From Terramyces sp. JEL0728 (taxonomy: Eukaryota > Chytridiomycota > Chytridiomycetes > Rhizophydiales > Terramycetaceae): DNA of 14,094 nucleotides. The stretch spans positions 1-14,094 of the forward strand of contig JADIIU010000210.1 in NCBI GenBank assembly GCA_027603945.1, read 5' to 3'. Made by a program: the position numbers and the translations under genes. The notes beneath the pieces were generated by a model that was not told where the DNA came from, searched no databases, and was given only the letters and a program-made list of their open reading frames with translations. Shown here in pieces: positions 1 to 14,094 of this stretch; position 1 is the first letter of the stretch; each line of letters opens with the position of its first letter.

Positions 1-971
1 GCCTCACCGTTGACTACTTTAAACGCAGAATCGAGTTGCTTGGCGTAGGGACTGGTTTCATCAGTGTAGGGCCGAGTTGATTTTCCCTTCAAGATTTCAT
101 CAACTGCAGAGCCGATATCAATATATCTGTTTTGCTTGTTGGTTTTCCACATTCTATTGACCGCAATGTTACTTAGAGGTCCGCAAGATAGGATAAACAG
201 CGTATTGGTATATTCTGCTGCCAGTCTGTCCCAAGTATGTTTGATTTCCTGGTGGTGAGATTCATACCACTCCAAACCGTGGTCTGGACACTGGACAAAT
301 TCTTTTAGAGTAGTAAATGTGTTTGCATGAAGCTTGCTGGCTTCGCTTGCAAAAATAACTACATCCCCTGCTTCTCCTTCTTGGATTTTCTTTAGCAGGT
401 TCTTTGTCCTTTTGTAATTGAAATTAACAAACAAATTGGCGTATGAAATGTAGTCTAAGCGTTGTTCTGTCATTGCCATGTAGCTATTCAACGATCCAAC
501 GTTATCATCTACAGGAAAACAGTCTGGGTTAAAGCAAATTACAAAACATAGGTTCTCCAAAGTGTCCAACGAGCGTGTCAGCCAGATCTGCAGATAATAT
601 TGACTCTGCTCCCCCACTGTACTTCCAGTTATCTTGCTCTGAAGTCAGTGGTTCCTTTTCTAACACAGCTAACTCGCCATCTCCATATCTGAGAACACCA
701 ACGCTTGCAGTTTTATCTAGAATGTGCTTCGCAACCAGCTAATATTAGAGCAAATTACAATCCAATCGTGATCCATCGGTCCAGCTATCTTGCGTTCACG
801 TAACTGTACTTCATGTTTAACAATTTGTTCCCTGCTAGTAAAATCAAAAGAGCAATAGAACCCCAACGATAGCAGCACTACGACAAAGAAAATAGCGGTT
901 CGCTGTACTTTTGAAATAGAAACTTGGTATTTCATTGGACAGCAAATTTTTCGTCTAACTTTACGTGTCAT
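1..971 (-). CDS. GT-D-fold glycosyltransferase-like type II membrane protein (3' end cut by window)
   Basis: Three exons on the minus strand: 971-759, 738-543 and 523-1; the C-terminus lies beyond position 1, so 310 residues are visible. Introns 758-739 (20 nt) and 542-524 (19 nt) are GT-AG with CTAAT and TTAAC just before the acceptor. Residues 1-24 are basic and cytosolic, and about 25-43 (IFFVVVLLSLGFYCSF) form a signal anchor, so the protein should sit in the Golgi or ER with a lumenal catalytic part. After splicing, VGVLRYGDGELAVL (about 84-97) matches the R-x-GDGE signature of the GT-D fold family (PF08759). Further on, LFVNFNYKR, VVIFAS, ILSCGPLSNI and IDIGSAVDEIL are also family-like, followed by a TRPYT segment. 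The sugar donor and acceptor cannot be inferred. It is transcribed divergently from another membrane-anchored glycosyltransferase at 1370. The exon structure is well supported; the family call is from motif memory. Confidence 0.72.
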
Positions 972-1369
972 GTACTGGATGATCTCAGTAAATATTAAAA
1001 GTCGATGTTCTGGATGATCTCAGCTAAATTGAATAATATAGAGCACAGTACATAAAAGATTAATTACTATAAAATGTACAGACTAAATAATGAAATCGAC
1101 CTCCTGCACTACTGGAAATTGGATATCGTAATATATGAGTAAACATTATCAATAATATAACTTTTTAAATAAACATCAACATCTATACACTTAAAATTTC
1201 AAATGGCTTGGACAGCGACCCAAAATACGGTACTCGTATAAAGTACTAGTAACTCGGCTTCAATATGGATCAATCACATATAATGTGCCATTTTGCATTC
1301 ATACCTTGCTGTTAGGATAGGTTATGCAACGCGTCCTGTGTTTAGCCAACGCGAAAAATTTCTCACAAA
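972..1369. promoter_or_regulatory. Shared divergent promoter region of two glycosyltransferase genes
   Basis: This 398 bp gap separates the start codons of two divergent genes for type II membrane glycosyltransferases. It is AT-rich and contains no open frame of note. It holds a 14 bp direct repeat close to the left gene. No tRNA or other RNA gene was seen. Most other divergent gaps in this window are much shorter (36 and 133 bp), so regulatory sites are plausible here, but none is identified. Confidence 0.5.
975..1023. repeat. 14 bp direct repeat in divergent promoter
   Basis: CTGGATGATCTCAG occurs at 975-988 and again at 1010-1023, 35 bp apart start to start, with partly similar flanks (both followed by an A-rich stretch). 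It lies a few bases upstream of the ATG of the minus-strand glycosyltransferase gene. It could be a duplicated transcription factor site or a chance microduplication in the leader. Confidence 0.6.
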
Positions 1370-2766
1370 ATGACTGCTGTTCCATTAAAGAAGAGAAACT
1401 TTGTGATCGCTTCCTTGGTAGGATTAATTGGTATCGCGCTGCTTATTTCGCTATTGTAACAGTTTGTTAACCCAGTGCACTCAAAGATCCGATTTCTTCG
1501 TTTCAGATAAACAATGAAGATTCTCCTGACCATTACCAGGTGTATGATAATGGCACACTCGGTATAGATATTTACAACACCGGAAAGAAACTCCCATTCA
1601 AGGACTTTATGTCGTTTTATCCTTTGGCCGATGCACGAGCTGCACTTGCTAGCGGCAACGCAGAACAGATTGGTATGTACCGATCGCTATTGCTAGAATA
1701 TACTTTTACTTATATTCAAAAACCCCCATTAAAGAAGCCGAATCCCAGTTGTACCAGACCGGAATTACCTACCCCTCAATGTAATGCTGTCTATCCAAAG
1801 GTATTCAGTGGTAATAGAGAAACTCTGGCAAAAATCGGTCTAGCTATTCAATTTGGCATCGAAGTCGACACGCTCTGGATTGCGCTTGAGCAATATTATG
1901 GTCTGGTGGACAAAGTCTTTATTATTGAATCCACCAGAGCACACAAGAGCCATACGAAAAAGCCAATTGTATGGGATAGGATCAAGAACTCTCCAAGATT
2001 CATCAAATTCAGCAACATGGTTGTACACATGGTGATCGATGACATTCCACTCGCAGTCGATACCGGTAGTATTTGGGAAATGGAGGGCTATCAAGAAACA
2101 ATCCGCTGGAAAAAGTTTTTGGAATGGAATGAACAAATGAAATTCTTTGGTGATAACGACTATATTGGCTTTGGCGATACTGATGAAGTTCCTAGTTTAG
2201 AAAGTTTGAACTATATCAAACATTGCCAGCTTGTAGAAGGAATTACTTCTTTTGACGTTGGCATTTGGTTCCCAATGGGGGCTGTTGACGATGCTTTTCG
2301 TCCAGATTTCCCTATCCCGGGGTATGCTTACACTTTAGGCGATCCGTCTTTTTATACTATCAAATCAGCTATGGAAGTTGGCAAAACTGCTACACCTAAT
2401 CGTTTAAGGGGAAGGAGTGGATATGCAATTGTAGGAGGTAAGATGCAACTAAATATAGGTATGCATATGTCCAACTATGCCTATTTACCTGCGTTTTACA
2501 GCAAAATCGCTACCTGCACTGAATGTCCTGGATTTGACTATGTCCTCAACTTGTTTGAAAAGGTATTGAACGCAAAAACAATCAAAGAAATTGAAGACGA
2601 CGAGTATATTAGCTCTTGGACTGGCTATAAAGATAGAATGGTAAAAGTTGCCACATTGGACGAATTGAACAAACATGCAGTTCAATTACCATGGTTCTTG
2701 GAGTGCAACCTTGATCTTTTTCCTGCCTGGAGCCATATCCATGACACACGTCTTGATAAGAAATAA
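1370..2766 (+). CDS. GT17 family glycosyltransferase (beta-1,4-mannosyl-glycoprotein GlcNAc-transferase-like)
   Basis: Exons 1370-1455, 1476-2437 and 2459-2766 give 451 residues. Intron 1 (1456-1475, 20 nt) carries TTAAC before CCAG and removes an in-frame stop; intron 2 (2438-2458, 21 nt) is in frame and stop-free. The start is the ATG at 1370, because it supplies a signal anchor (about residues 11-31, FVIASLVGLIGIALLISLLF) expected of a Golgi type II enzyme. The lumenal part matches Glyco_transf_17 (PF04724): VDTLWIALEQYYGLVDKVFIIE near 159, the GDTDEVP acidic motif at 262-268 (probable metal/donor site), SFDVGIWFPMG and YTLGDPSFY. Removing intron 2 restores VGGMHMSNYAYLP, which reads like the GGMH segment of fungal GT17 enzymes. 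Animal members add the bisecting GlcNAc to N-glycans; the fungal substrate is unknown. The stop codon lies within an AATAAA. Confidence 0.88.
2438..2458 (+). other. 21-nt in-frame, stop-free intron in GT17 gene
   Basis: The segment starts GTAAGATGCA, contains ACTAAA and ends TATAG. It is a multiple of three without a stop, so naive ORF calling retains seven residues (GKMQLNI). Splicing joins VGG to MHMSNYAY, restoring a conserved GGMH motif. Donor, branch-like site, acceptor and length agree with the other introns in the window. Confidence 0.8.
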
Positions 2767-2767
2767 A
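2762..2767 (+). terminator. Poly(A) signal overlapping the GT17 stop codon
   Basis: AATAAA spans the TAA stop (2764-2766) of the GT17 gene. The next gene on the opposite strand ends at 2828, so 3' ends of the two convergent transcripts must be very short or overlap. Confidence 0.55.
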
Positions 2768-2818
2768 TTTGCTGAAAGTTGGAGAAGCTCTGCAAAAAAT
2801 AACAGTGCAGATTATGTA

Positions 2819-2824
2819 TTTATT
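2819..2824 (-). terminator. Poly(A) signal just past the Rieske-DUF455 stop codon
   Basis: On the minus strand AATAAA begins 4 nt after the TAA stop (2830-2828), which is itself followed by an in-frame TGA. The 61 bp convergent gap 2767-2827 contains nothing else that I recognise. Confidence 0.55.
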
Positions 2825-2827
2825 TCA

Positions 2828-4133
2828 TTAGTTTCCTGCCATTGGTTCATAGAATTTTGCATCTAGACCAGCTTTCAAGCGATCTTCATCGTTGAAAGGA
2901 GGTCTAAGCGGACCAAAGAACAAGTTTTTTACAATATGGTGGAATTTTTCATATCTATCTACTCCAGTCTGGCTGCAAATGTACGTAAACCATTTTTGCC
3001 CCCTAAAGACATGTCCTACTTCATCATTATGGATTTTTTCCAGTTTAACTACACTCTCGTGATCGTTTGCCTTCTTGAATTTTGCAATAGTAGATGGGTT
3101 TACATCCAACCCTCTCGCTTCATGCACCATATGCACAATTGCCAGTCTATCCAATAAATTACCACTGGTTAATGTTGCAGAATCCCATAGACCATCGTGG
3201 ACCGGCAAGGATCCATAATGAGACCCCAAATCCTTTAACCTCTCCACTAGAAAGGTGAAATGGGTAGCCTCTTCTTTTGCAACTTGGACAAAATCTGTAC
3301 AAAATTCGTCTGGAATTTTTTCACCATTAAATTTGGAATCACAAAACCGAGCAATGATATCCCAAGCCAAATCTATAGCCCACTGTTCCACATTAGCTAG
3401 TGCGTGCAATATTGCTATTCGTGATTGAACAGACCCGCCTTTCCCAATCTTTTTCGTTTTCCAGCGATCGACAAACTGTAATTCCGCATGTCTAGCTGGC
3501 CTATCTGGCACTGGAATAGTAGCTCCAACTTTTAATTCTCCCTTTTCCCATTTATCTGCTACCAAATAGGTTAATTCGACTTTTTCTGTAGGATCTGGAG
3601 TATTCAAAATCTGTACTGCACATTCTACTAATGTTTTTCCAGATATGTTTATATTATCAATCTTTTCTGCAATCTCTCTAATTTCATCCTTTGTTTCAAC
3701 AATTTTGCAATCCCTCTTGTAATTTGGAATCGAGATAAACCTAATTTCCAATTTATCAGCTGACTCATAATCTAAATATACTTTATCATCCTGCAGCACT
3801 ACATTGAATACCGCAGTTTGAAAAATATCGTCACTGAAATTAATTCGTTGTTACTCAACACTCTTTCCTGTCTTGACTGAGAAACGATAGGCGTGCCATG
3901 GACAAATCAGATGCAGCTCTTTTTTGCAGCCGGCAGTGTCTTCAATATCCTGAATTTCTACTGGTCCTTTGTACAATGGTCCACCACTACATTAATAATT
4001 GTTACCTATGCGGACATGTGCTCTCCATACAAAAATATTCATCCCCATGTCTATACACTACTAACGAATGTTTATCGGTAGTGACCAGTGCCCGCTGTTC
4101 AATAAAAAGTTTCTGTTCGCCGACCAACAGCAT
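2828..4133 (-). CDS. Rieske [2Fe-2S] - DUF455 ferritin-like fusion protein
   Basis: Exons 4133-4006, 3986-3855 and 3833-2828 encode 421 residues; introns are 4005-3987 (19 nt, TTAAT) and 3854-3834 (21 nt, TTAAT). Residues 1 to about 105 form a Rieske domain with C40-P-H42 and C71-P-W-H74, the two Cys and two His that bind a [2Fe-2S] cluster. The first intron lies immediately after the CPH box, so the domain is visible only after splicing. Residues about 150-421 match DUF455 (PF04305), a ferritin-like four-helix family. Possible diiron ligands are E236, E275-x-x-H278, E325 and E358-x-x-H361 (EATH, HEAR and EVGH motifs). The architecture suggests an oxygenase or oxidase in which the Rieske centre passes electrons to the diiron site; the substrate is unknown. 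There is no obvious targeting peptide. Its ATG is 36 bp from that of MCTS1. Some upstream in-frame sequence is open, but the ATG at 4133 is the first. Confidence 0.87.
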
Positions 4134-4169
4134 TTGAAATATTTTCTTGCGAAAAAAAAAGCAACTCAA
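4134..4169. promoter_or_regulatory. 36 bp bidirectional intergenic region between Rieske-DUF455 and MCTS1
   Basis: The whole space between the two divergent start codons is 36 bp and contains a run of nine A (4152-4160), read as T9 toward the Rieske-DUF455 gene. There is no room for a conventional promoter, so core elements and leaders must overlap the coding sequence of the opposite gene. Confidence 0.6.
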
Positions 4170-4712
4170 ATGTTCAAGAAATTCAACCCAAAGCAAGACA
4201 TTTCAGGACAGACTCAGGCCAAATCATCTGTTCAGAGAAATATCAGAGCAAAGATTTTGGAACAAATGCCTTTACTTGAACCACACATTGAAGAGATATT
4301 GCCAAAAAAAGCTGCACTTTTCATCGTCAAATGTTTAGATAGAGTTTCAATTATACAAGTCAACGGCGAATCGCTCTTTTTCCAGCACTTTGACGGTCCA
4401 TTTGTCCCAAACTTGAAGCTGTTGCAGAAATATCCAGACATTTTACCAAAAGTGCAAGTTGATCGCGGAGCGATAAAATTCGTGCTGAAAGGGGCAGATA
4501 TTATGTGTCCTGGTGTTACTTCTAAAGGCGGTAGCATTCCGGATGGATTGGAAAAAGATCGCATGGTTTGTGTGATGGCTGAGGGTAAACAGCACGCACT
4601 TGCTGTAGGACTACTTTCAATGAGTTCAGAAGAAATCAAGTCCATCAATAAGGGGGTTGGTCTACTAAATATGCATTATTTGAATGATGGGCTATGGGCA
4701 ACTCTGAAATAA
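4170..4712 (+). CDS. MCTS1: MCTS1/Tma20 ribosome recycling and re-initiation factor (PUA domain)
   Basis: A single exon encodes 180 residues, almost the length of human MCTS1. The ATG at 4170 begins MFKKF, the conserved family N-terminus; an in-frame upstream ATG at 4068 is rejected because it would add non-conserved sequence lying inside the divergent gene. Conserved blocks are ILPKKAALFIVKCLDRVSI, INGE-like VNGESLFFQ, GPFVPNLKLLQKYPDILP, VDRGAIKFVLKGADIMCPG (start of the PUA domain, PF01472, about residues 95-170), MAEGKQHALAVG and the C-terminal HYLNDGLW. In animals and yeast it pairs with DENR/Tma22 on the 40S subunit to remove tRNA after termination and to aid re-initiation. It is intronless, unlike all neighbours except the mucin-like gene. 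An AATAAA overlaps its stop codon. Confidence 0.95.
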   Translation: MFKKFNPKQDISGQTQAKSSVQRNIRAKILEQMPLLEPHIEEILPKKAALFIVKCLDRVSIIQVNGESLFFQHFDGPFVPNLKLLQKYPDILPKVQVDRGAIKFVLKGADIMCPGVTSKGGSIPDGLEKDRMVCVMAEGKQHALAVGLLSMSSEEIKSINKGVGLLNMHYLNDGLWATLK

Positions 4713-4713
4713 A
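4708..4713 (+). terminator. Poly(A) signal overlapping the MCTS1 stop codon
   Basis: AATAAA covers the TAA stop (4710-4712). Cleavage 10-30 nt downstream would fall inside the 3' end of the convergent GRWD1 coding sequence. Confidence 0.6.
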
Positions 4714-4721
4714 ATGTAATT

Positions 4722-4727
4722 TTTAAT
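4722..4727 (-). terminator. Possible ATTAAA poly(A) signal of GRWD1
   Basis: On the minus strand ATTAAA begins 6 nt after the GRWD1 stop (4735-4733). It lies in the 20 bp convergent gap, so cleavage would fall within the MCTS1 coding region and the two mRNAs would overlap antisense. Confidence 0.4.
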
Positions 4728-4732
4728 GAAGA

Positions 4733-6217
4733 TTAAGCGTTAAATGTTTTGAAAACATTGAATCCATCATATGCGGTGCTGATGATTACGCCAGGGGCTT
4801 GCTTGTGCCAATGTAATTCTTTGATATTTTGTTGTCCTTGGTGAATAAATAACAATTGAGGAGGGACTTCTATTTGCTGGCCACCTGCCCCAATTGCAAC
4901 CATAGGCTCTTCCTCTTCATCTCTTTCTAATGCAAGATCCCATATAGTCAACTGTTCATCAGCCCCAGAAACAGCCAGGACAGATGATTCTGTCGGATGC
5001 CAATCAATAGAGGTAATAGGACCTTTGTGCCAACTGAACGTAGCAGCAGTTTCGGGAGTCTTTTTCGATGATGGCCAAGTTCTTAGATCCCAAATGCTGA
5101 ATACACCAGAATCAGATCCAGATGCCAGCAAATATTCAACAGACCTCAAGTTACCGATTAATTACCTATTCCAGCTGATAACATTCACGTCACTATCGTG
5201 TGCGTGTACTGATAACTGTGGTTTGTTTTTAGTTCTAGAATCCCAAATTTTGACTGTTTGATCAGCAGAACAAGTAGCAAACACACCTCCTTGGCTGGGA
5301 GACCATTGAATATCTTCGATAGAGCTTTTATGGCCTGTAAAAGCAGTCTTGTCAGTGGTGAACCCGGAATCGGTTTTAGTAGTTAGGAAAATTCTTCCTT
5401 TTCCATCTCCAGTCAATAAATGTCCAGATTGAATTGGCGACCAATCAATACCGTAGCCTTCATATGCTCCATGATTAGTGATAGTGTAAATCGGTTTAGT
5501 ATCTCTCGGTGGAATAAGTCCAGGAATATCAAAAGAATCGACATGAGAAGTAATATCATAAATATTCACTTTACCGGTTTCAGACATTGCAGCAACAATG
5601 GATACTTCAGGATGTGGCATTGACTATATTAGATATAACTACCCTAATTCTGTTGACACCTCCTTCGTGTGCGATGGTCTTGAATTCCAAGACAGGATCT
5701 TCATCTTCATTTTCATCATCTGAAACTTCTTCGTCGTCGTCATTTTTAGTTTTGTGAAGTGAAGACATCTTCATGATATAAATCTTGTTTTCATTTGCAG
5801 TTGGCGCTTGTGAACCAGCAACGGTATAGCATGCCATTGGGAAATTAGCTCTTCCGCTTCCTAATTTGTCCTGCAAGATGTCAAAGCTTAAACATGGCCA
5901 TTCAACATTCATCTTGTGAAGCATATCGTAGGTGGATTGGTCGGCAACCAGTTCTTCTCCTTCTTCCAACTCTCTCCCTGGCAGGTATACTGGGAGGTTT
6001 TCTGGCTTATCTTGATCTTCTTCGTCGTCGTCCATGGCTATCTTAGTATTTAAAAACCTTCATCGTTGTCCTCGTCGCTGTCATTGTGGATGATAACTTC
6101 TCCTTCTCCATCATCCATATCGTCTTCAATTCTATCTTCGAACTCGCCCATTCCGTCATCTTCGATTTTCATCCGCTGCTCATGGTCTTTTGTATTTTCC
6201 CTTTTCTTTCCAACCAT
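4733..6217 (-). CDS. GRWD1: GRWD1/Rrb1 glutamate-rich WD-repeat ribosome assembly factor
   Basis: Four exons: 6217-6058, 6037-5643, 5623-5166 and 5144-4733, giving 474 residues, close to human GRWD1. Introns are 6057-6038 (20 nt), 5642-5624 (19 nt) and 5165-5145 (21 nt). The start at 6217 opens a Lys-rich then acidic N-terminus (about 1-66). PVYLPG at 69-74 and EWPCLSFDI at 99-107 form the histone-binding-type N-terminal module (CAF1C_H4-bd). An acidic loop (NDDDEEVSDDENEDEDP) precedes GGVNRIR. The WD40 propeller follows, with VKIWDSR, FSIWDLR and LTIWDLA blades and conserved SADQ, GSDSG and SGADEQ turns. Yeast Rrb1 is the dedicated chaperone of ribosomal protein L3 in 60S assembly; GRWD1 also binds histones. 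It converges on MCTS1 with 20 bp between stops. Confidence 0.93.
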
Positions 6218-6225
6218 TTTCAAAG

Positions 6226-6244
6226 TTGAAAAAAAGAAAAAAAA
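6226..6244 (-). promoter_or_regulatory. T-rich leader motif upstream of GRWD1
   Basis: Read on the minus strand the motif is eight T, C, seven T, then CAA, 9 nt before the ATG at 6217. It matches 17 of 19 positions with the motif at 6802-6820 upstream of PWP1. It may be a core promoter or transcription start element. The rest of the 146 bp gap 6218-6363 holds nothing recognised. Confidence 0.4.
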
Positions 6245-6363
6245 GTGACACTATTCCAGATGATATCTGCTCACTCTTGTTTCCAGCGCACAATAATTTT
6301 AGCCTCATAGTTTCTGGAGCAAGATTGAGATCATGTAAGACCAAACGGCTATAGAAATTAAAT

Positions 6364-6700
6364 CTAGTGTTCCTTTTCCTTTTTATTTAGTAATAATGTC
6401 CCCGACACCATCAGTAACGCTCCAAACCACCACTTGAGTTCAACCTGCTCGCCCATCATATATCCAAACAAGCCGGTGCTTATGATATTACTTGCCGAGT
6501 TAATAACGGTCGCTTTGATGGTGCTGGTCTTTGAGAGAGCCATGGTGTAGGTTTTGAACATCAAAAGGTTGGATCCAAGTACGAAAACTATGGAAATGGG
6601 ATATTTTTGAATATACCTTATTAATAACAATCTACTTGCTAAACACTGATGCGGAACAAGCGAGAATTCCACTCGCGATCGACAAAGCCATCCAACTCAT
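6364..6700 (-). CDS. TMEM42: TMEM42-like small EamA/DMT-fold membrane protein
   Basis: Two exons, 6700-6636 and 6616-6364, encode 105 residues; the intron 6635-6617 is 19 nt with TTAAT three bases before its AAG end. The ATG at 6700 gives MSWMALSIASGILACSASVF, the expected first helix. About four hydrophobic helices follow: residues 4-20, 28-45 (SIVFVLGSNLLMF), 58-75 and 83-98 (WWFGALLMVSGTLLL). The block ATVINSASNIISTGLFGYMMGEQ corresponds to the ATVTNTASNF-type segment of animal TMEM42 and the EamA half-repeat. It is a half-size member of the drug/metabolite transporter superfamily and would need to dimerise to transport; the substrate is unknown. The C-terminus KEKEH fits a KXKXX ER-retrieval signal. 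It lies divergent from PWP1 and ends in TAG. Confidence 0.8.
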
Positions 6701-6833
6701 CTTTTCTTCAGGAAGAAAAAAGAATATTTCCAAAGCAACGTGCGAATATATTACTAGCACTGTTTAAAGCTCGCAGATGATTTATCCACTGCTCCTACAT
6801 ATTTTTTTTCTACTTTTCAAAAACAAAAAAAAT
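6701..6833. promoter_or_regulatory. Divergent promoter region TMEM42-like / PWP1 with T-rich motif
   Basis: This 133 bp gap contains the motif T8-C-TAC-T4-CAA at 6802-6820 followed by an A-rich run up to the PWP1 ATG. Another T-rich tract lies on the minus strand about 10-20 nt upstream of the TMEM42-like ATG. The former closely resembles the element upstream of GRWD1. Confidence 0.4.
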
Positions 6834-8418
6834 ATGATTTCTGCTTTAGCTTGGGTTAGAAAAGGAGCTGCTCAGAATAAACCAGAAAAACTAGTACTCA
6901 CAGATGAGGAATATGGTCGTATCCAAGAGCAAATGGGAATTGAATTGGAACAAGCAAAGGAAGATTTGCAACAAGAACAGGATATTAGCGAAAATGTTGA
7001 AGACAAATACGATTTGGCAAATTATGACCAAGAAACTAATCAGCAAGCAATGTTTTCCAATGTGAAGGGGCTTGCGTACTATGAATCAAATGAAGAGGAT
7101 CCTTTTATTGGTAGAATATAGTTAATCAGAATTAAAGGAAGAGGATGAAGAAGACGAAGTACTTATAGAAGATTCGGACAATCTATTATTGGGGTGTAAA
7201 ACTGAAGATGATGTTTCTTACTTGGAAGTTTACATTTACGAAGAAGAGGAAGACAACTTGTACGTTCATCATGATATTATGCTTCCTTCATTCCCATTAT
7301 GCTTGGAATGGCTTGATTTCCACGTTGGACGTAAGCAAGAGAGACAAGGAACTGGTAAGTGGCAAAGTCATTTGCAGCAAAGACTTGAAAAGCTCAGGAC
7401 TAATCCATAGGAAACTATGTAGCTGTCGGAACCTTTGATCCGCAAGTTGAAATTTGGGATTTAGACACCATCGATGGTGTATTCCCTGAGGTTATACTTG
7501 GAAAGATTCCTGATGGGACCTGCGCTGTCAAATCCACCAAAGGAAAACATGGTCCTGCTAGAGTTGCAAAGCGACCGCAGCCAGAAAGACATGTTGATGC
7601 GGTAATGTCGATTTCTTGGAATAAGAAACAACGAAATATCCTAGCTACTGGGTCTGCAGACACCACAGTCAAAGTGTGGGACTTGCAGAAGCCTGAAATT
7701 GCTGTAGTCTCTTATTCCCACCACAAGAATAAGGTGCAGTCTGTTGAATGGAATTCATTTGAACCTACTGCGCTGTTGACTGGTGGTTACGATAAACTTG
7801 CTTGCTGTTTCGATTCAAGACAAGCGGATAAGGTTGCTGAATGGAAATTAAGTGCTGATGTGGAATGTATGAAATGGGATCCACACCACGCTGAAAGGTT
7901 TTATGTAAATATTATTAATTGCCAGGTTAGTACTGAAGATGGTATTGTCAAATGTTTCGATGCTAGAAATCCCAGCACCACTCTTTTTACGCTGCACGCT
8001 CATGATGCTGCCGTTTCGGCTTTAGATGTTAATCCGCATATTCCGGGATTTTTGGTTACAGGTTCATCTGACAAACAAGTTAAACTGTGGTCGATAGGGG
8101 ATAAGCCAAAATGCATTGTATCAAGAGATTTGGATGCTGTAATTATTATTTTAAAATTAGGGAAAGGTATTTTCAGCAAATTTCTCTGTTGATTCTCCAT
8201 ACGTCTTGGCGGTAGGAGGAAGCAAGGGCAAAGTAGTGTTGTGGAATGTTGGCGATAATAACTCTGTCAAACGCGCGTTTCCAAACAGCCAACGCGGTCC
8301 TGCCAAGAAAGAGCTAATTGAAGTTGAAGAAGAGGAAGAGGTAGAAGAAGATGACGATGAACCACAAGATGAAGTAATGGAAGAAGACTATTCTGACGAG
8401 GATGGAGATCATGTTTAA
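6834..8418 (+). CDS. PWP1: PWP1 periodic tryptophan WD40 protein, ribosome biogenesis
   Basis: Five exons: 6834-7110, 7130-7354, 7411-7904, 7926-8138 and 8161-8418, giving 488 residues (human PWP1 is about 500). Introns are 19, 56, 21 and 22 nt; the third (7905-7925) is in frame and stop-free. The start at 6834 gives MISALAWVRKGAA, matching the family VAWVR-G-A N-terminus; an upstream in-frame ATG at 6777 only adds leader sequence. Conserved blocks are NVKGLAYYESNEEDPF, LYVHHDIMLPSFPLCLEWLDF, GNYVAVGTFDPQVEIWDLD, HVDAVMSISWNK, GSADTTVKVWDL, GGYDKLACCFDSR, STEDGIVKCFDARN and GSSDKQVKLWSI, followed by an acidic tail. Yeast Pwp1 is a nucleolar factor for 60S assembly and 5.8S/25S rRNA processing; human PWP1 also supports rDNA transcription. 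It neighbours a second 60S assembly factor, GRWD1. Confidence 0.94.
7355..7410 (+). other. 56-nt intron of PWP1, the only one not ultra-short
   Basis: It opens GTAAGT and ends CTAATCCATAG. Splicing joins GGAACTG to GAAACTATG and gives GTGNYVAVGTFDPQVEIWDLD, the conserved family sequence. It contains an earlier potential acceptor (CAG ending 7377, a 23-nt intron), but using that leads to a stop within three codons. Confidence 0.85.
7905..7925 (+). other. 21-nt in-frame, stop-free intron in PWP1
   Basis: The segment begins GTAAATATTA, holds TTAAT and ends TGCCAG. Read through, it adds seven residues (VNIINCQ) inside a WD40 blade. Spliced, it gives RFYVSTEDGIVKCFDARN, which aligns without a gap to the family (ASTDDGFVYNLDAR in human). 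Confidence 0.85.
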
Positions 8419-8470
8419 ATTATAATATTTCATAAAGGGCTCATTTCAATTGCAAATGTTAAATTAACAA

Positions 8471-8476
8471 TTTATT
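8471..8476 (-). terminator. Poly(A) signal of the mucin-like gene
   Basis: On the minus strand AATAAA lies 12 nt after the TAA stop at 8491-8489. The gap between this stop and the PWP1 stop (8419-8488) is 70 bp. Confidence 0.5.
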
Positions 8477-8488
8477 AAAGGTACGAAC

Positions 8489-9394
8489 TTAAAGCAAAAG
8501 GAAAGCAAGTAATACTGAAGCAGATGCGAAATAAGACATGCTTAATGCGGAAGAAGGAGCTGTGGTTGTCATGTATGCGGCAGCGGTGGTTGTTGCAGCG
8601 GCAGTTGTAGGAGCTACGTATCCGTTGGTGGTTGTAACAACAGGCACTGAGGAAGCATATCCAGCTGTAGTTGTAGGAGCAGCAGTAGTAGGAGCTACAT
8701 ACCCACTAACTGTAGTTGTAGGAACAGCAGTTGTAGGAGCTACATATCCACTAACCGTAGTTGTAGGAGCAGCAGTTGTAGGAGCTACGTATCCACTTGC
8801 TGTAGTAGTTGGAACAGCAGTTGTAGTTGCAGCTACATACCCTGCAGTGGTTGTTGTTGCAGCGGCAGTTGTAGTTGCAGCTACGTATCCACTTGCTGTA
8901 GTAGTAGGAGCAGCAGTAGTAGTTGCAGCTACATAACCTGCAGAAGTGGTTGTTGCAGCAGCAGTTGTAGTTGCAGCTACGTATCCACTAGCTGTAGTGG
9001 TAGGAGCAGCAGTAGTAGTTGCAGCTACATAACCTGCAGAAGTGGTTGTCGCAGCGGCAGTAGTAGTGGCAGCAGCAGTTGTAGTTGCAGCTACATAACC
9101 TGCGGAAGTGGTTGTCGCAGCGGCAGTTGTTGTTGCAGCGGCAGTAGTAGTTGCAGCCACATACCCTGCGGAAGTGGTTGTTGCAGCGGCAGTTGTAGTT
9201 GCAGCAGCAGTAGTAGTGGCAGCTACATAACCTGCAGTGGTTGTAGTTGCATCAGCAGTTGTTGTTGCAGCAGCAGTTGTAGTTGCAGCCACATACCCTG
9301 CGGTAGTGGTTGTTGCAGCGGCGGTTGTTGAGCTGTCTGTAGATTGTGCGTATACACTTGAGATAGCTAGTAATAATGCTGCGGTGAATTTCAT
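8489..9394 (-). CDS. Thr/Ala-rich repetitive GPI-anchored mucin-like cell-surface protein
   Basis: A single exon encodes 301 residues. MKFTAALLLAISSVYAQ is a secretory signal peptide, with cleavage expected near A16-Q17. The body consists of 13 GYVA-led repeats of Thr and Ala with occasional Pro. Repeats nearer the N-terminus are of the type GYVAATTTAAATTTAAATTT; those nearer the C-terminus are GYVAPTTAAPTTTVS. The sequence is made for dense O-glycosylation, with one Tyr per repeat. The C-terminal ASASVLLAFLLL after a small-residue region (PSSALSMS) is a GPI attachment signal. It is probably a cell-wall or cell-coat protein; no enzymatic domain is present. The clean signal at both ends, the poly(A) signal and a TATA box support the minus frame over the repeat-driven open frames on the other strand. 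Its 5' end and upstream region are duplicated with WDR70. Confidence 0.85.
   Translation of the reverse strand: MKFTAALLLAISSVYAQSTDSSTTAAATTTTAGYVAATTTAAATTTADATTTTAGYVAATTTAAATTTAAATTTSAGYVAATTTAAATTTAAATTTSAGYVAATTTAAATTTAAATTTSAGYVAATTTAAPTTTASGYVAATTTAAATTTSAGYVAATTTAAPTTTASGYVAATTTAAATTTTAGYVAATTTAVPTTTASGYVAPTTAAPTTTVSGYVAPTTAVPTTTVSGYVAPTTAAPTTTAGYASSVPVVTTTNGYVAPTTAAATTTAAAYMTTTAPSSALSMSYFASASVLLAFLLL
8555..9343 (-). repeat. Degenerate tandem coding repeat (GYVA / Thr-Ala units)
   Basis: The units are about 45-66 bp, built from GCWGCH and ACAACW-type codons around a GGNTAYGTRGCW core. Because of the trinucleotide-rich composition the region is open in several frames on both strands. 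Copy number is likely to vary between strains. Confidence 0.85.
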
Positions 9395-9774
9395 CTAGTT
9401 AATGCCTACTAGAAAATGCGCGTTTATGTTATTTATACTTGAACATTCAAGCTGGCCCGGCATGAGTTTGTTTGACATGACGTAACGTGTTTGGTTTATC
9501 GGTCGATTGGAAACTTCATTAAAATATAAGCTTAAAAGAACTAAAATATTCGCTTTTGGCACACCGATTGTTTAAATCAAATTAGATATTTCAGAGATAT
9601 CTGACGGACACAAGATTTATTCGGCTGTAACACAATATGCCAAAAACTTTAAACCCAGGGGAAGGCCAATATCAACAAATAGAGATTTAAATCGACCTTT
9701 ATTGTCAATTTGGGTTTGTTGGGGAAAGAATTGCATGTCGGAAATTTTGCCATATTCTTTGATCACAATCAAAA
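9395..9774. promoter_or_regulatory. Divergent promoter region of mucin-like gene and WDR70 copy 1
   Basis: This 380 bp AT-rich region lies between two divergent start codons. Toward the mucin gene it has a TATA-like box; it also has a TGACGTAA (CRE/ATF-like) sequence at 9478-9485. A CCAAT at 9666-9670 lies about 105 bp upstream of the WDR70 ATG. The same region recurs without visible change at 11754-12133. No RNA gene was seen. Confidence 0.5.
9430..9437 (-). promoter_or_regulatory. TATA box of the mucin-like gene
   Basis: TATAAATA on the minus strand lies about 36-43 nt upstream of the ATG at 9394. A TATA box suits a strongly or inducibly expressed wall-protein gene. An identical copy is at 11789-11796 in the second repeat unit. 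Confidence 0.5.
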
Positions 9775-11536
9775 ATGAATGAAGACGAAATGATGGCAGC
9801 TATGGGGCTGCCTACTTCTTTTGGAAAGAAGGCATATAAAAAGGAGATTCAAAAAAGACAAATTACTAGTACAAAGATTGAAAAGCGCAAAGTAGAGGAA
9901 ACATTTGAACCAAAAATTGAACCAAATGTTAATGAAAAGGACGAGCAAGAGGACCAGCCGAATGAGGCGGAATCAGAAGATGAAGACGATAACCGAGTAG
10001 ACGAGTTGCCGTTAATGTCGTTTGGAAACTTGGAAGGGCATGAAAAGCCAGTTACATGCTTCTCTGTAGATCCTGCAGGCAGCAGGTATTTTAATTCTAA
10101 TGATAGACTAGTTACCGGGGGAAGAGACAATAGCTTTAAACTATGGGATTTTCACTCGATGGGTGCTTCGTTAAAGTCATTCAAATCGGTTGAACCTGCA
10201 GAGGGAAATCCAATTAGAGATGTTCAGTTTTCCCTTGGAGGCGATTTAATGTTAGTTGCCCCAAGCACACATCAGCTTCATGTATACAAAAGAGATGGAG
10301 AAGAGCTATTTCAATGCATCAAAGGGGATATGTACGTTAGAGATTATCGCAAAGTTCAAGGACATACTTCTCAGCTTACTTCTTCAAGATGGCATCCAAA
10401 TGATAAGAACCTGTTCATGACTTCATCCCTTGATTCGACAATCAGAATATGGGATTTAAATAATATTCAAAATAACAAGAAAGGCTCTATCCACTGTATG
10501 TTTGTCAGATTTAGCGGGACAGTTGGAAAGACACCAGTAACCTCTGCTAGCTATTCGAATGATGGGCGATATGTAGTGGCTGGAGATTCGACGGGAGGGA
10601 TAAGAATATGGAAATCACTTGGTTCTTACTCTGGTGCTGCAGAAAAGACGATCAAGGATGCGCATTCAAATGGAGTCGCGATAACGAGCGTTCAAATGGC
10701 CTTAAATGGGTTGCATATCACTTCAAGATCAATGGATGATACAGTAAAATTATGGGATGTCAGAAACCTTAAACAGCCAATTGGAGTCGCAAAAGACATG
10801 ACCTGTTTCCATGAAGAAGCAAATACTATTTATTCACCAAATGAGAGGTACATTTTGGCTGGAACTGCTGTAAAGAAAGAGCAAGGACCAGCCAAAATTG
10901 TTGTGTTTGATAGACATACTTTAAATAGAGTGAATGAGATTGAAGTTCCAACTTCTTGCATTCGCTTAATGTGGCCAACGAAATTAAACCAACTATTTGC
11001 CGGGCTAGGGAATGGGCAAGTCCGGGTATTTATTTCAGACTTTAGTCATGGTGGGATTACGGTTCCATTGTCCAAGGGAAGGAAAAAGTTGGCAGTTGAC
11101 GATTATGATATGTATATGGGAGGTGTAGTTGCCTCCGGATATCTCCTTGACCCTGAACCCGAACCGGATGAATTTGTTGTAATCAAGAAATCTTGGACTG
11201 GCGATCGTTTGGCCAAACAGCCTGGTAAATTGTATTTAATATATAGAACTACCGCCAGAAGTTATTAGAAACAAGAACAGAAGAACGGGGGGAATGAATG
11301 TTACAGAGCATTTGATGAAGACTATGACCAAAAACACAACGCGACAGGAAGATCCTCGAGAGGCTATTTTGAAGTATGCCGATAAAGCGAAAAGTACTGT
11401 GTAATTAATTATAGATGATCCATACTGGATTGCACCGGCGTACAAGAAGACTCAAGATAAACCTGTGTTGGCAGAAAAAGTATATGAAGATGAAGCTGAA
11501 TATGTTCGAGACCAAAAGAAACGCAGAAGACAGTGA
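9775..11536 (+). CDS. WDR70: WDR70 WD40 protein, copy 1
   Basis: Exons 9775-11224, 11247-11393 and 11415-11536 encode 572 residues (human WDR70 is about 650). Introns are 11225-11246 (22 nt, TTAAT) and 11394-11414 (21 nt, TTAAT). Without splicing the frame would end at 11268 and lose about 90 residues, including the conserved tail TTRQEDPREAILKYADKAK and NDPYWIAPAYKKTQDKP, which aligns with the EDxPYWVSPAY-type C-terminus of animal WDR70. The N-terminus has MMAAMGLPTSFGKKA, a family-like FGKK motif, then an acidic stretch (about 55-76). The WD40 region begins with GHEKPVTCFSVDP; other blades include TGGRDNSFKLWDF, SSLDSTIRIWDL and SRSMDDTVKLWDV. ECIKGD-like QCIKGDMYVRDY is also conserved. WDR70 is nuclear; fission yeast and human forms act with CUL4-DDB1-type ligases on histone H2B ubiquitination in DNA repair. 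Budding yeast lacks it. Confidence 0.93.
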
Positions 11537-11608
11537 TCGTACTTATGGAAATCACATCAACTTATTTGAGATAATCTTTACAATTAGTTTCAATATGGTC
11601 CATTCTGA

Positions 11609-11614
11609 AATAAA
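11609..11614 (+). terminator. Candidate poly(A) signal of WDR70 copy 1
   Basis: AATAAA lies 72 nt after the TGA stop, much further than for the other genes here. It is conserved in copy 2 despite nearby changes. Confidence 0.4.
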
Positions 11615-11645
11615 GTGCAAATTAGTAATTGATAATGATGAGCAT

Positions 11646-11753
11646 TTATTCAAAAAAGGGATGAACTACTATTGAGTGCCATTTCCAAGATTTGTGCAGC
11701 ATTATTCTTTCCAGTCGCTTGAACCAATTGGGAAAACCTGCGGTGAATTTCAT
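11646..11753 (-). pseudogene. Truncated mucin-like 5' end fused to WDR70 3' flank (35-codon chimeric ORF)
   Basis: The duplication carried the mucin promoter, TATA box, leader and the first 16 coding bases (MKFTA). At the junction (11738) the frame continues into reversed WDR70 downstream sequence and stops after 35 codons. The signal peptide's hydrophobic core is lost, so it is probably a non-functional remnant, though its promoter appears intact and could drive an antisense transcript into the WDR70 copy 1 3' end. Confidence 0.7.
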
Positions 11754-12133
11754 CTAGTTAATGCCTACTAGAAAATGCGCGTTTATGTTATTTATACTTG
11801 AACATTCAAGCTGGCCCGGCATGAGTTTGTTTGACATGACGTAACGTGTTTGGTTTATCGGTCGATTGGAAACTTCATTAAAATATAAGCTTAAAAGAAC
11901 TAAAATATTCGCTTTTGGCACACCGATTGTTTAAATCAAATTAGATATTTCAGAGATATCTGACGGACACAAGATTTATTCGGCTGTAACACAATATGCC
12001 AAAAACTTTAAACCCAGGGGAAGGCCAATATCAACAAATAGAGATTTAAATCGACCTTTATTGTCAATTTGGGTTTGTTGGGGAAAGAATTGCATGTCGG
12101 AAATTTTGCCATATTCTTTGATCACAATCAAAA

Positions 12134-13895
12134 ATGAATGAAGACGAAATGATGGCAGCTATGGGGCTGCCTACTTCTTTTGGAAAGAAGGCATATAAAA
12201 AGGAGATTCAAAAAAGACAAATTACTAGTACAAAGATTGAAAAGCGCAAAGTAGAGGAAACATTTGAACCAAAAATTGAACCAAATGTTAATGAAAAGGA
12301 CGAGCAAGAGGACCAGCCGAATGAGGCGGAATCAGAAGATGAAGACGATAACCGAGTAGACGAGTTGCCGCTAGTGTCGTTTGGAAACTTGGAAGGGCAT
12401 GAAAAGCCAGTTACATGCTTCTCTGTAGATCCCGCAGGCAGCAGGTATTTTAATTCTAATGATAGACTAGTTACCGGCGGAAGAGACAATAGCTTTAAAC
12501 TATGGGATTTTCACTCGATGGGTGCTTCGTTAAAGTCATTCAAATCGGTTGAACCTGCAGAGGGAAATCCAATTAGAGATGTTCAGTTTTCCCTCGGAGG
12601 CGATTTAATGTTAGTTGCCCCAAGCACACATCAGCTTCATGTATACAAAAGAGATGGAGAAGAGCTATTTCAATGCATCAAAGGGGATATGTACGTTAGA
12701 GATTATCGCAAAGTTCAAGGACACACTTCTCAGCTTACTTCTTCAAGATGGCATCCAAATGATAAGAACCTGTTCATGACTTCATCCCTTGATTCGACAA
12801 TCAGAATATGGGATTTAAATAATATTCAAAATAACAAGAAAGGCTCTATCCACTGTATGTTTGTCAGATTTAGCGGGACAGTTGGAAAGACACCAGTAAC
12901 CTCTGCTAGCTATTCGAATGATGGGCGATATGTAGTGGCTGGAGATTCGACGGGAGGGATAAGAATATGGAAATCACTTGGTTCTTACTCTGGTGCTGCA
13001 GAAAAGACGATCAAGGATGCGCATTCAAATGGAGTCGCGATAACGAGCGTTCAAATGGCCTTAAATGGGCTGCATATCACTTCAAGATCAATGGATGATA
13101 CAGTAAAACTATGGGATCTCAGAAACCTTAAACAGCCAATTGGAGTCGCAAAGGACATGACCTGTTTCCATGAAGAAGCAAATACTATTTATTCACCAAA
13201 TGAGAGGTACATTTTGGCTGGAACTGCTGTAAAGAAAGAGCAAGGACCAGCCAAAATTGTTGTGTTTGATAGACACACTTTAAATAGAGTGAATGAGATT
13301 GAAGTTCCAACTTCTTGCATTCGCTTAATGTGGCCAACGAAATTAAACCAGCTATTTGCCGGGCTAGGGAATGGGCAAGTCCGGGTATTTATTTCAGACT
13401 TTAGTCATGGTGGGATTACGGTTCCATTGTCCAAGGGAAGGAAAAAGTTGGCAGTTGACGATTATGATATGTATATGGGAGGTGTAGTTGCCTCCGGATA
13501 TCTCCTTGACCCCGAACCCGAACCAGATGAATTTGTTGTAATCAAGAAATCTTGGACTGGCGATCGTTTGGCCAAACAGCCTGGTAAATTGGATTTAATA
13601 TATAGAACTACCGCCAGAAGTTATTAGAAACAAGAACAGAAGAACGGGGGGAATGAATGTTACAGAGCATTTGATGAAGACTATGACCAAAAACACAACG
13701 CGACAGGAAGATCCTCGAGAGGCTATTTTGAAGTATGCCGATAAAGCGAAAAGTACTGTGTAACTAATTATAGATGATCCTTACTGGATTGCACCGGCGT
13801 ACAAGAAGACTCAAGATAAACCTGTGTTGGCAGAAAAAGTATATGAAGATGAAGCTGAATATGTTCGAGACCAAAAGAAACGCAGAAGACAGTGA
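12134..13895 (+). CDS. WDR70: WDR70 WD40 protein, copy 2
   Basis: The same three-exon structure as copy 1, shifted by 2359: exons 12134-13583, 13606-13752 and 13774-13895, 572 residues. Both 22-nt and 21-nt introns keep GT, TTAAT or CTAAT, and AG. By eye the coding exons differ from copy 1 at 15 sites, 13 of them synonymous; the protein changes are M81V and V329L. An apparent third change near the end of the unspliced frame (Tyr to Asp) lies inside intron 1 and does not affect the protein. The dominance of silent changes means both copies have been under purifying selection since they separated, or that they are alleles placed in tandem. The first 633 bp of the unit, including the first 79 codons, are identical to copy 1. 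Confidence 0.93.
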
Positions 13896-14094
13896 TTGTA
13901 CTTGTGGAAATCACATCGACTTATTGAGATAATCTTTACAATTAGTTTCAATTGGTCCATTCTGAAATAAAATGCAAATTAGTAATTGATAATGATGAGC
14001 ATTTATTCAAAAAAGGGATGAACTACTATTGAGTGCCATTTCCAAGATTTGTGCAGCATTATTGTTTCCAGTCGCTTGAACCAATTGGGAAAAC
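13896..14094. other. 3' flank of WDR70 copy 2 to window edge
   Basis: AT-rich sequence with AATAAA at 13966-13971. Compared with copy 1 it has five substitutions and two single-base deletions in about 200 bp. No gene is seen. Confidence 0.6.

Follow-up and report, generated by a model that had tools for sequence, protein, structure and literature searches.

Introns of the Terramyces contig

Terramyces sp. JEL0728, a chytrid, is the source of the 14,094-bp contig analysed here at its full length (hereafter, the window). Seven of its genes are interrupted by segments that, with one 56-nt exception, span only 19-22 nt and that are very probably spliceosomal introns. The taxonomy record places this organism in the Fungi, Chytridiomycota, Rhizophydiales, Terramycetaceae. 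Gene models built on both strands define 17 distinct introns, together with three repeats in a second copy of the WDR70 gene; five are 19 nt in length, three 20, six 21, two 22 and one 56. As read from the sequences, 16 of the 17 begin with GTA and 13 present an exact YTAAY at the branch position. In an earlier description made from the letters of the window alone (the sequence-only reading), 16 introns had been placed in seven genes. The seven genes stand, as do the counts of five 19-nt, three 20-nt, two 22-nt and one 56-nt introns; the number of 21-nt introns rises from five to six, bringing the total to 17, and with that addition the reported 15 of 16 GTA starts becomes 16 of 17. The introns are as follows:

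524..542, minus strand: 19-nt intron, gene at 524-935 (score 10.8; branch TTAAC)
739..758, minus strand: 20-nt intron, gene at 524-935 (score 12.2; branch CTAAT)
1456..1475, plus strand: 20-nt intron, GT17 glycosyltransferase gene (1370-2766; PF04724)
2438..2458, plus strand: 21-nt intron, GT17 gene (branch CTAAA)
3834..3854, minus strand: 21-nt intron, Rieske and DUF455 gene (2828-4133; PF04305, PF22543)
3987..4005, minus strand: 19-nt intron, same gene, inside the Rieske domain
5145..5165, minus strand: 21-nt intron, RRB1/GRWD1-like WD40 gene (4733-6217; branch GTAAC)
5624..5642, minus strand: 19-nt intron, RRB1/GRWD1-like gene
6038..6057, minus strand: 20-nt intron, RRB1/GRWD1-like gene (the sole GTT start in the window)
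6617..6635, minus strand: 19-nt intron, EamA-type transporter gene (ends at 6364; score 7.1; branch TTAAT)
7111..7129, plus strand: 19-nt intron, PWP1 gene (removed in GenBank model P0121)
7355..7410, plus strand: 56-nt intron, PWP1 gene (5' site GTAAGT; removed in P0121)
7905..7925, plus strand: 21-nt intron, PWP1 gene (kept in the GenBank protein)
8139..8160, plus strand: 22-nt intron, PWP1 gene (mis-spliced in the GenBank model)
10086..10106, plus strand: 21-nt intron, WDR70 copy 1 (I1; removed in GenBank P0001)
11225..11246, plus strand: 22-nt intron, WDR70 copy 1 (I2; removed in P0001)
11394..11414, plus strand: 21-nt intron, WDR70 copy 1 (I3; removed in P0001)
12445..12465, plus strand: WDR70 copy 2, counterpart of I1 (from the gene models)
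13584..13605, plus strand: WDR70 copy 2, counterpart of I2 (one substitution, outside the splice signals)
13753..13773, plus strand: WDR70 copy 2, counterpart of I3 (one substitution, YTAAY kept)

The spliced product of the RRB1/GRWD1-like gene, named by eye, matches PF12265 (CAF1C_H4-bd) and WD40, and the spliced piece of the EamA-type gene scores 29.4 bits against PF00892 (cut-off 28.2). For the gene at 524-935, the spliced protein has no Pfam match.

Homologous proteins and deposited gene models

The WDR70 and PWP1 junctions were compared with the best 120 of 450 and the best 120 of 2,226 homologues. At those junctions that are informative, homologous proteins lack the residues that read-through of the introns would add; such residues, which the sequence-only reading had named as evidence that would speak against introns, were sought and not encountered there. 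At WDR70 I1, 120 of 120 homologues show no insertion, while at I3, covered by 99, there are 80 of the same length, 18 with short deletions and one with an insertion (+11). The PWP1 56-nt junction is aligned without length change in 102 of 120 homologues, the 21-nt junction is unchanged in 116 of the 119 covering it (two have deletions and only P0121 itself has +7), and the 22-nt junction (I4) shows no length change in 106 of 115. Two junctions provide weak tests, namely, WDR70 I2 (49 of 115 unchanged), which falls in a loop of variable length in homologues, and the PWP1 19-nt junction (I1; 48 of 119 unchanged), which falls in a variable acidic stretch.

All three WDR70 introns are left out of the GenBank protein P0001, and the 19- and 56-nt introns are left out of the GenBank PWP1 protein, HDV01_003195 (P0121). 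In the latter, the 21-nt intron is retained as seven extra residues and the 22-nt intron is mis-spliced. Deposited models miss some of the tiny introns but include others, so that part of this information is already public. Gene models of this clade can, as in the case of PWP1, carry retained or mis-spliced introns, with consequences for comparative work. Other Terramyces-clade models may hold errors like those of HDV01_003195.

Proteins of relatives that were predicted without splicing run off at the positions of Terramyces introns. Frame restoration was tested in these by degenerate back-translation with permissive residue sets, working from the proteins only. With 19 nt deleted, Gorgonomyces P0134 regains 10 of the 10 residues expected (6 of 11 with the next-best deletion) and JGI protein P0004 regains 14 of 14 (7 of 14 with the next best); with 20 nt deleted, P0146 regains five of six. 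With P0152 and P0005, the test was uninformative. This suggests the presence of 19-20-nt introns in Gorgonomyces and the relatives represented by P0004 and P0146.

Length and abundance across the genome

The Terramyces assembly comprises 15,016,339 bases in 231 contigs, from which 10 kb of each of contigs C1-C20 (157-520 kb each) were taken, giving a 200-kb sample. A length-blind gene search by dynamic programming, in which any GT-AG intron of 10-120 nt was allowed at equal cost and without a branch motif, was applied to the 20 sampled stretches and the window, with genes of at least 150 codons being counted. In this manner, 139 of 259 introns fell at 19-22 nt. When the ends were replaced by decoy pairs, no peak was seen, with 17 of 225 (TG-GA), 15 of 200 (CT-AC) and 9 of 219 (GT-GA) falling in the same range. 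The decoys also indicate that much of what lies outside 19-22 nt among the 259 is search noise.

Motif counts in the 200 kb point the same way. GTA...YTAAY...AG spaced at 19-22 nt occurs 223 times, as compared to 99 in the reversed sequence, a strict control because its background is about twofold; beyond 22 nt there was no excess, each length from 23 to 99 lying below the reversed count. Across the whole 15.0-Mb assembly, a strict 20-nt pattern was found 1,162 times, against 83 for the reversed pattern.

A model trained on the length-blind tiny introns and applied to the 200 kb of the 15 Mb yielded 115 genes and 318 introns, with 95 of the 115 genes being interrupted. The lengths were 18 nt (2), 19 (76), 20 (139), 21 (59), 22 (26), 23 (9) and longer (7), such that 311 of 318 lie at 18-23 nt and 300 at 19-22 nt. 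Internal exons have a median length of 214 nt and a 95th percentile of 923 nt. The claim that tiny introns occur genome-wide is thus borne out for the sampled genome, both by the trained model (311 of 318) and by the length-blind search (139 of 259). Scaling from 311 per 200 kb gives, by extrapolation, some 23,000 tiny introns, a figure that assumes the sample to be typical and that applies to an assembly holding duplicated stretches; a similar total is extrapolated from the strict pattern, which is present in 13 of the 311 sampled introns and shows an excess of 1,079 genome-wide.

Two further patterns were considered and rejected. The length-blind search returned too few 21-mers, an apparent depletion of introns of 3n length that was set aside as search bias because the motif count is smooth. 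A separate class of long introns was likewise not accepted. Many "long" predictions resemble noise or enclose a tiny intron for which the acceptor was wrongly chosen. A few longer introns look real, namely, the 56-nt intron of PWP1 and one of about 62 nt in Isy1 (by eye).

Splice signals and in-frame stops

Major-class introns have the 5' site consensus CAG/GTAAGT. In the introns of the trained model, exon positions -3 to -1 favour A-A-G (0.45, 0.58, 0.54), and within the intron, A is found at +3 (0.90) and +4 (0.56) and T at +5 (0.51) and +6 (0.63). There is no preference for G at +5 (0.20, as compared to 0.19 in the intron interior), so that the 5' site, too, is not of the usual kind; on average, 5.6 of nine positions match the above consensus, which is the general one, the host U1 not having been found.

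The modelled branch A is nucleotide 14 or 15 of the intron in 278 of 311 cases; in 273 it precedes the last base by 5-6 nt, and in 188 the branch pentamer is an exact YTAAY. In the length-blind peak, where no motif was imposed, YTAAY is present in 88 of 139 introns, with its A being 4-7 nt from the end in 83 of the 88. Exact YTAAY, reported earlier for 12 of 16 window introns, therefore persists in the window (13 of 17) and describes the majority of the genome sample, not a rule. The stretch from 5' site to branch is T-rich (T 0.40, as compared to 0.26 in coding sequence). Only about 1.5 nt on average separate the pentamer from the NAG, leaving no ordinary pyrimidine tract between branch and AG. 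The earlier description of a branch site fused to the 3' splice site is right as to this close spacing, an arrangement that is unusual but not unique among genomes.

Introns of the U12 type carry a RTATCCTT 5' site and a CCTTAAC branch. The tiny-intron consensus differs from both.

If retained, 50 of the 59 21-nt introns would introduce an in-frame stop, where 39.6 (SD 3.4) are expected at random phase (P = 0.0016), as if retention were policed; introns of 19, 20 and 22 nt show no clear excess (P = 0.29, 0.16 and 0.75). Two stopless 21-mers scoring at least 7.5 were left uncalled inside exons. A related analysis of in-frame stops exists for ciliates (PMC5014332).

Pairs of tiny introns with a 0-nt exon between them were also noted. 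Two are found in L012 on the plus strand, at 5813-5853 (scores 10.3 and 7.6) and 6097-6138 (9.3 and 7.2), both within the U2A' gene, the spliced product of which is gap-free there against PDB 5mqf_W. A third, at L002, plus strand, 5234-5277, has scores of 8.4 and 1.9. The two introns of such a pair may be spliced out in turn (recursive splicing), or the pair may be a single intron of 41-42 nt.

Changes between duplicated copies

Near-identical stretches occur on separate contigs, namely, C30 and C33 (L042/L043) and C111 and C199 (L028/L029 and L045/L046), as expected of a diploid assembly with unmerged haplotypes or of recent duplication. The WDR70 tandem copies at 9379-14094 of the window are identical in 2,335 of 2,359 aligned columns; since the contig stops at the end of a unit, they may represent two haplotypes that were joined in assembly.

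Neutral change was assessed by aligning L045/L046 (98.6% identical), L042/L043 and the WDR70 copies. Coding sequence contains 90 substitutions and no indels in 10,716 sites, introns four substitutions and two indels in 442 sites, and intergenic sequence 44 substitutions and nine indels in 4,174 sites. Among genic sites, then, indels are confined to introns, and each of the two is 1 nt long and, were the intron translated, would cause a frameshift. Of 20 introns, six differ between copies, with the splice signals being kept in all six.

Elsewhere in the window, the minus strand at 8489-9394 encodes an intronless 301-aa protein of Ala/Thr-rich repeats which, by eye, has a signal peptide and a hydrophobic C-terminus and resembles a GPI-anchored mucin.

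Splicing machinery, Isy1 and Cwc25

All of the splicing proteins sought, namely, SF1, U2AF65, U1C, U2A', Isy1 and Cwc25, were found. SF1 presents its helix-hairpin, KH domain and two zinc knuckles, in a reconstructed model that includes a doubtful 36-nt intron. U2AF65 has two Pfam RRMs, and its gene, broken by introns, scores 251.7 bits against the large-subunit model TIGR01642 (cut-off 310.3). U1C retains its zinc finger and U2A' (L012) matches PDB 5mqf_W at 198 bits. A single U2 snRNA (140 bits) has an intact branch-binding GUAGUA region. The sequence-only reading had raised loss or change of U1, U2, SF1 or U2AF; U2, SF1, U2AF65 and U1C are present, and U1 snRNA, though not found, cannot be called lost.

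Terramyces Isy1 starts MAPKTLAQKQ, its widely conserved N-terminus having been replaced. Among the best 120 of 342 Isy1 homologues, 70 start M-x-R-[NS], and many of the other 50 start at a downstream Met. Complete, non-canonical N-termini were seen by eye in Boothiomyces, Globomyces sp. JEL0801, Kappamyces sp. JEL0680, Gorgonomyces and JGI protein P0312, in a survey where annotated starts may be wrong and where the odd starts of P0254, P0320 and P0359 were not counted. The canonical form is found in Spizellomyces, Fimicolochytrium, Powellomyces, Chytriomyces and Polychytrium, while the Batrachochytrium salamandrivorans entry begins MLYRF and is uninformative. The Terramyces Isy1 gene model (L030, minus strand, 1963-2027) has three tiny introns separated by a 1-nt and a 3-nt exon and brings back E-D-K at canonical spacing (by eye); its alternative, a single 70-nt intron, would yield the N-terminus annotated for Boothiomyces (P0241). 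Cwc25, by contrast, starts MGGGDLNLKKSWHP, as does PDB chain 5yzg_X (CWC25 homolog), its plug being intact.

In Stentor, two elements located at the active site, the N-terminus of Isy1 and the glycine plug of Cwc25, are not conserved, according to PMC9505925. The altered Isy1 N-terminus is shared with Stentor and not shown to be general to tiny-intron genomes. There is an even chance that the replacement is unrelated to intron size and reflects lineage-specific drift in the Rhizophydiales: Cwc25 is unchanged, Globomyces and Kappamyces enter the comparison by their Isy1 sequences and not by intron size, and the altered cases may share one ancestor, so that, with Stentor, at best two independent cases exist. 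Against drift stand the wide conservation of this segment elsewhere (the above 70 of 120) and alteration of the same region in Stentor, a tiny-intron organism (PMC9505925). A link between the Isy1 change and tiny introns is conceivable, if somewhat doubtful.

Interpretation

Taken together, the computed length peak, splice signals, informative homologue junctions, intron-confined indels and splicing genes argue strongly that these are major-class (U2-type) introns which would have shrunk to near the functional minimum across a chytrid nuclear genome. The proposal of tiny spliceosomal introns in the nuclear genome of a fungus-like organism is supported, the organism being a true fungus.

Recognition of these introns might proceed as follows. 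At the 5' site, U1 would recognise chiefly the exonic AG and the GUA, positions +4 to +6 contributing little. At the 3' end, where no pyrimidine tract follows the branch, SF1 and U2AF, and then U2, would read branch and AG as a single module. As U1 and U2 particles hardly fit together on 20 nt, U1 would be handed off to U6 before or during U2 docking, and a lariat loop of 14-15 nt would be tolerated in the active site, possibly aided by the replaced Isy1 N-terminus. Such sequential intron definition is a reasonably probable course of events. A more elaborate scenario, offered tentatively and perhaps unlikely as a whole, is that several Rhizophydiales families operate a spliceosome adapted to introns near 20 nt, in which U1 pairing at +4 to +6 was relaxed, the Isy1 segment entering the catalytic centre was replaced, in parallel to Stentor yet with the Cwc25 plug kept, and back-to-back introns with 0-, 1- or 3-nt exons are removed successively, as in recursive splicing.

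The same introns could instead be recognized by exon definition, with U1 and U2 pairing across the exon before being juxtaposed. This would avoid the clash of U1 and U2 on 20 nt and is compatible with the median internal exon of 214 nt; still, it is improbable, as internal exons reach 923 nt (95th percentile), abutting introns in the U2A' gene leave 0-nt exons, and, according to PMC5014332, intron definition probably prevails when small introns are combined with long exons. That the segments are not introns at all and represent in-frame low-complexity insertions, sequencing or assembly indels or programmed frameshifts is hardly tenable, for while some are in frame and stopless and the GenBank PWP1 model keeps one, the sharp 19-22-nt peak appears solely with GT-AG ends, a branch motif is common to them, homologues lack the residues and genic 1-nt indels occur only in these segments. 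Equally implausible is removal other than by the spliceosome, whether by a tRNA-splicing-like process or by DNA elimination like that of ciliate internal eliminated sequences, which could appeal to the missing U1 and U6 snRNAs and to a case resting on DNA yet would have to account for GT-AG ends, the branch motif, the intact branch-binding region of U2 and the presence of all six splicing protein genes.

Several points weigh against the interpretation of these segments as shrunken major-class introns. Excision from RNA is inferred from DNA and proteins, not from transcripts, and the hand-off is at present a conjecture. The trained model is, by its construction, biased towards tiny introns. Stop codons were tested at four intron lengths and are in clear excess at one, and this excess is slightly a matter of search bias because the model somewhat disfavours stopless 3n introns. 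Both intron indels came from the initial 3-kb pair, L028/L029, with the longer pair adding none. As the Cwc25 plug is unchanged, Terramyces shows a single one of the two changes in branching factors known from Stentor. Finally, among the snRNAs sought (U1, U2 and U6), U1 was not found with RF00003 across the genome or with two sequence patterns, nor was U6 with its Rfam model and a gapped core pattern. Of the U1 patterns, ATACTTACCTG occurs at four places, none a U1 gene and one inside a phospholipase C gene (by eye), and GATCANGAAG...TTGCAC at two, neither convincing by eye; two sub-threshold Rfam matches to U6 were rejected since they lie inside a predicted coding gene. An assembly gap and divergent sequence are both possible, and absence is not claimed.

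Significance and comparison with known systems

Introns of about 20 nt and below have been described for nucleomorphs, heterotrich ciliates and mikrocytids (PMC10245619), and in 2025 a 23-nt Trichomonas intron was still counted among the shortest known (PMC12316389). Among the papers listed in searches of the open-licence literature, which mostly leaves out subscription papers and preprints, none describes such introns for chytrids or for any other fungi; mention elsewhere, for instance in the paper releasing these genomes, is possible. In PMC13391722, "intron" occurs once, as a program setting; in PMC11797018, it does not occur; the main text of PMC11649378 does not mention chytrids.

At 19-22 nt, the Terramyces introns are near the shortest known and appear to interrupt most genes (95 of 115 sampled). 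Terramyces could thus serve in the laboratory for finding the smallest intron that splicing can remove, being a fungus with thousands of tiny introns and recognisable factors that is close enough to yeast for swap experiments. If the above interpretation is true, minimum intron size and U1/U2 spacing would become directly testable.

In PMC2483917, a branch site a few nt from the AG is described for some intron-poor yeasts and the Guillardia nucleomorph, with variable 3' sequences in all intron-rich species studied there. Terramyces resembles some intron-poor yeasts and protists in having a strong branch motif so placed; unlike Terramyces, their genomes are intron-poor, and the likeness concerns branch-to-AG spacing, not intron length. 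The nucleomorph of the chlorarachniophyte Bigelowiella natans likewise has numerous introns of 18-21 nt (PMC10245619, PMC2483917), although it is the strongly reduced, relic nucleus of an endosymbiont, whereas Terramyces has a 15-Mb fungal nuclear genome.

Stentor coeruleus is similarly free-living, with thousands of introns within a length window of a few nt, U at +5 in its commonest intron sequence, GUAAUUUUUAUAUAG, a 5-nt tail after the branch A and an Isy1 N-terminus that is not conserved (PMC9505925). By contrast, Stentor introns measure 15-16 nt with the branch at position 10-11, as opposed to 19-22 nt and 14-15 in Terramyces; they are described as lacking a strong branch consensus, where Terramyces has a TAA-type motif; the Cwc25 glycine plug is lost in Stentor and intact in Terramyces; and introns occur in 18% of Stentor genes, as compared to the 95 of 115 seen here. 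Mikrocytos mackini also has uniform, very short introns, there of 16-17 nt and conserved in sequence, and there, too, U1 is not among the snRNAs identified (PMC10245619). M. mackini is, however, an intracellular parasite with 224 introns and 17-19 identified spliceosome proteins, whereas Terramyces has thousands of introns and every splicing protein that was sought.

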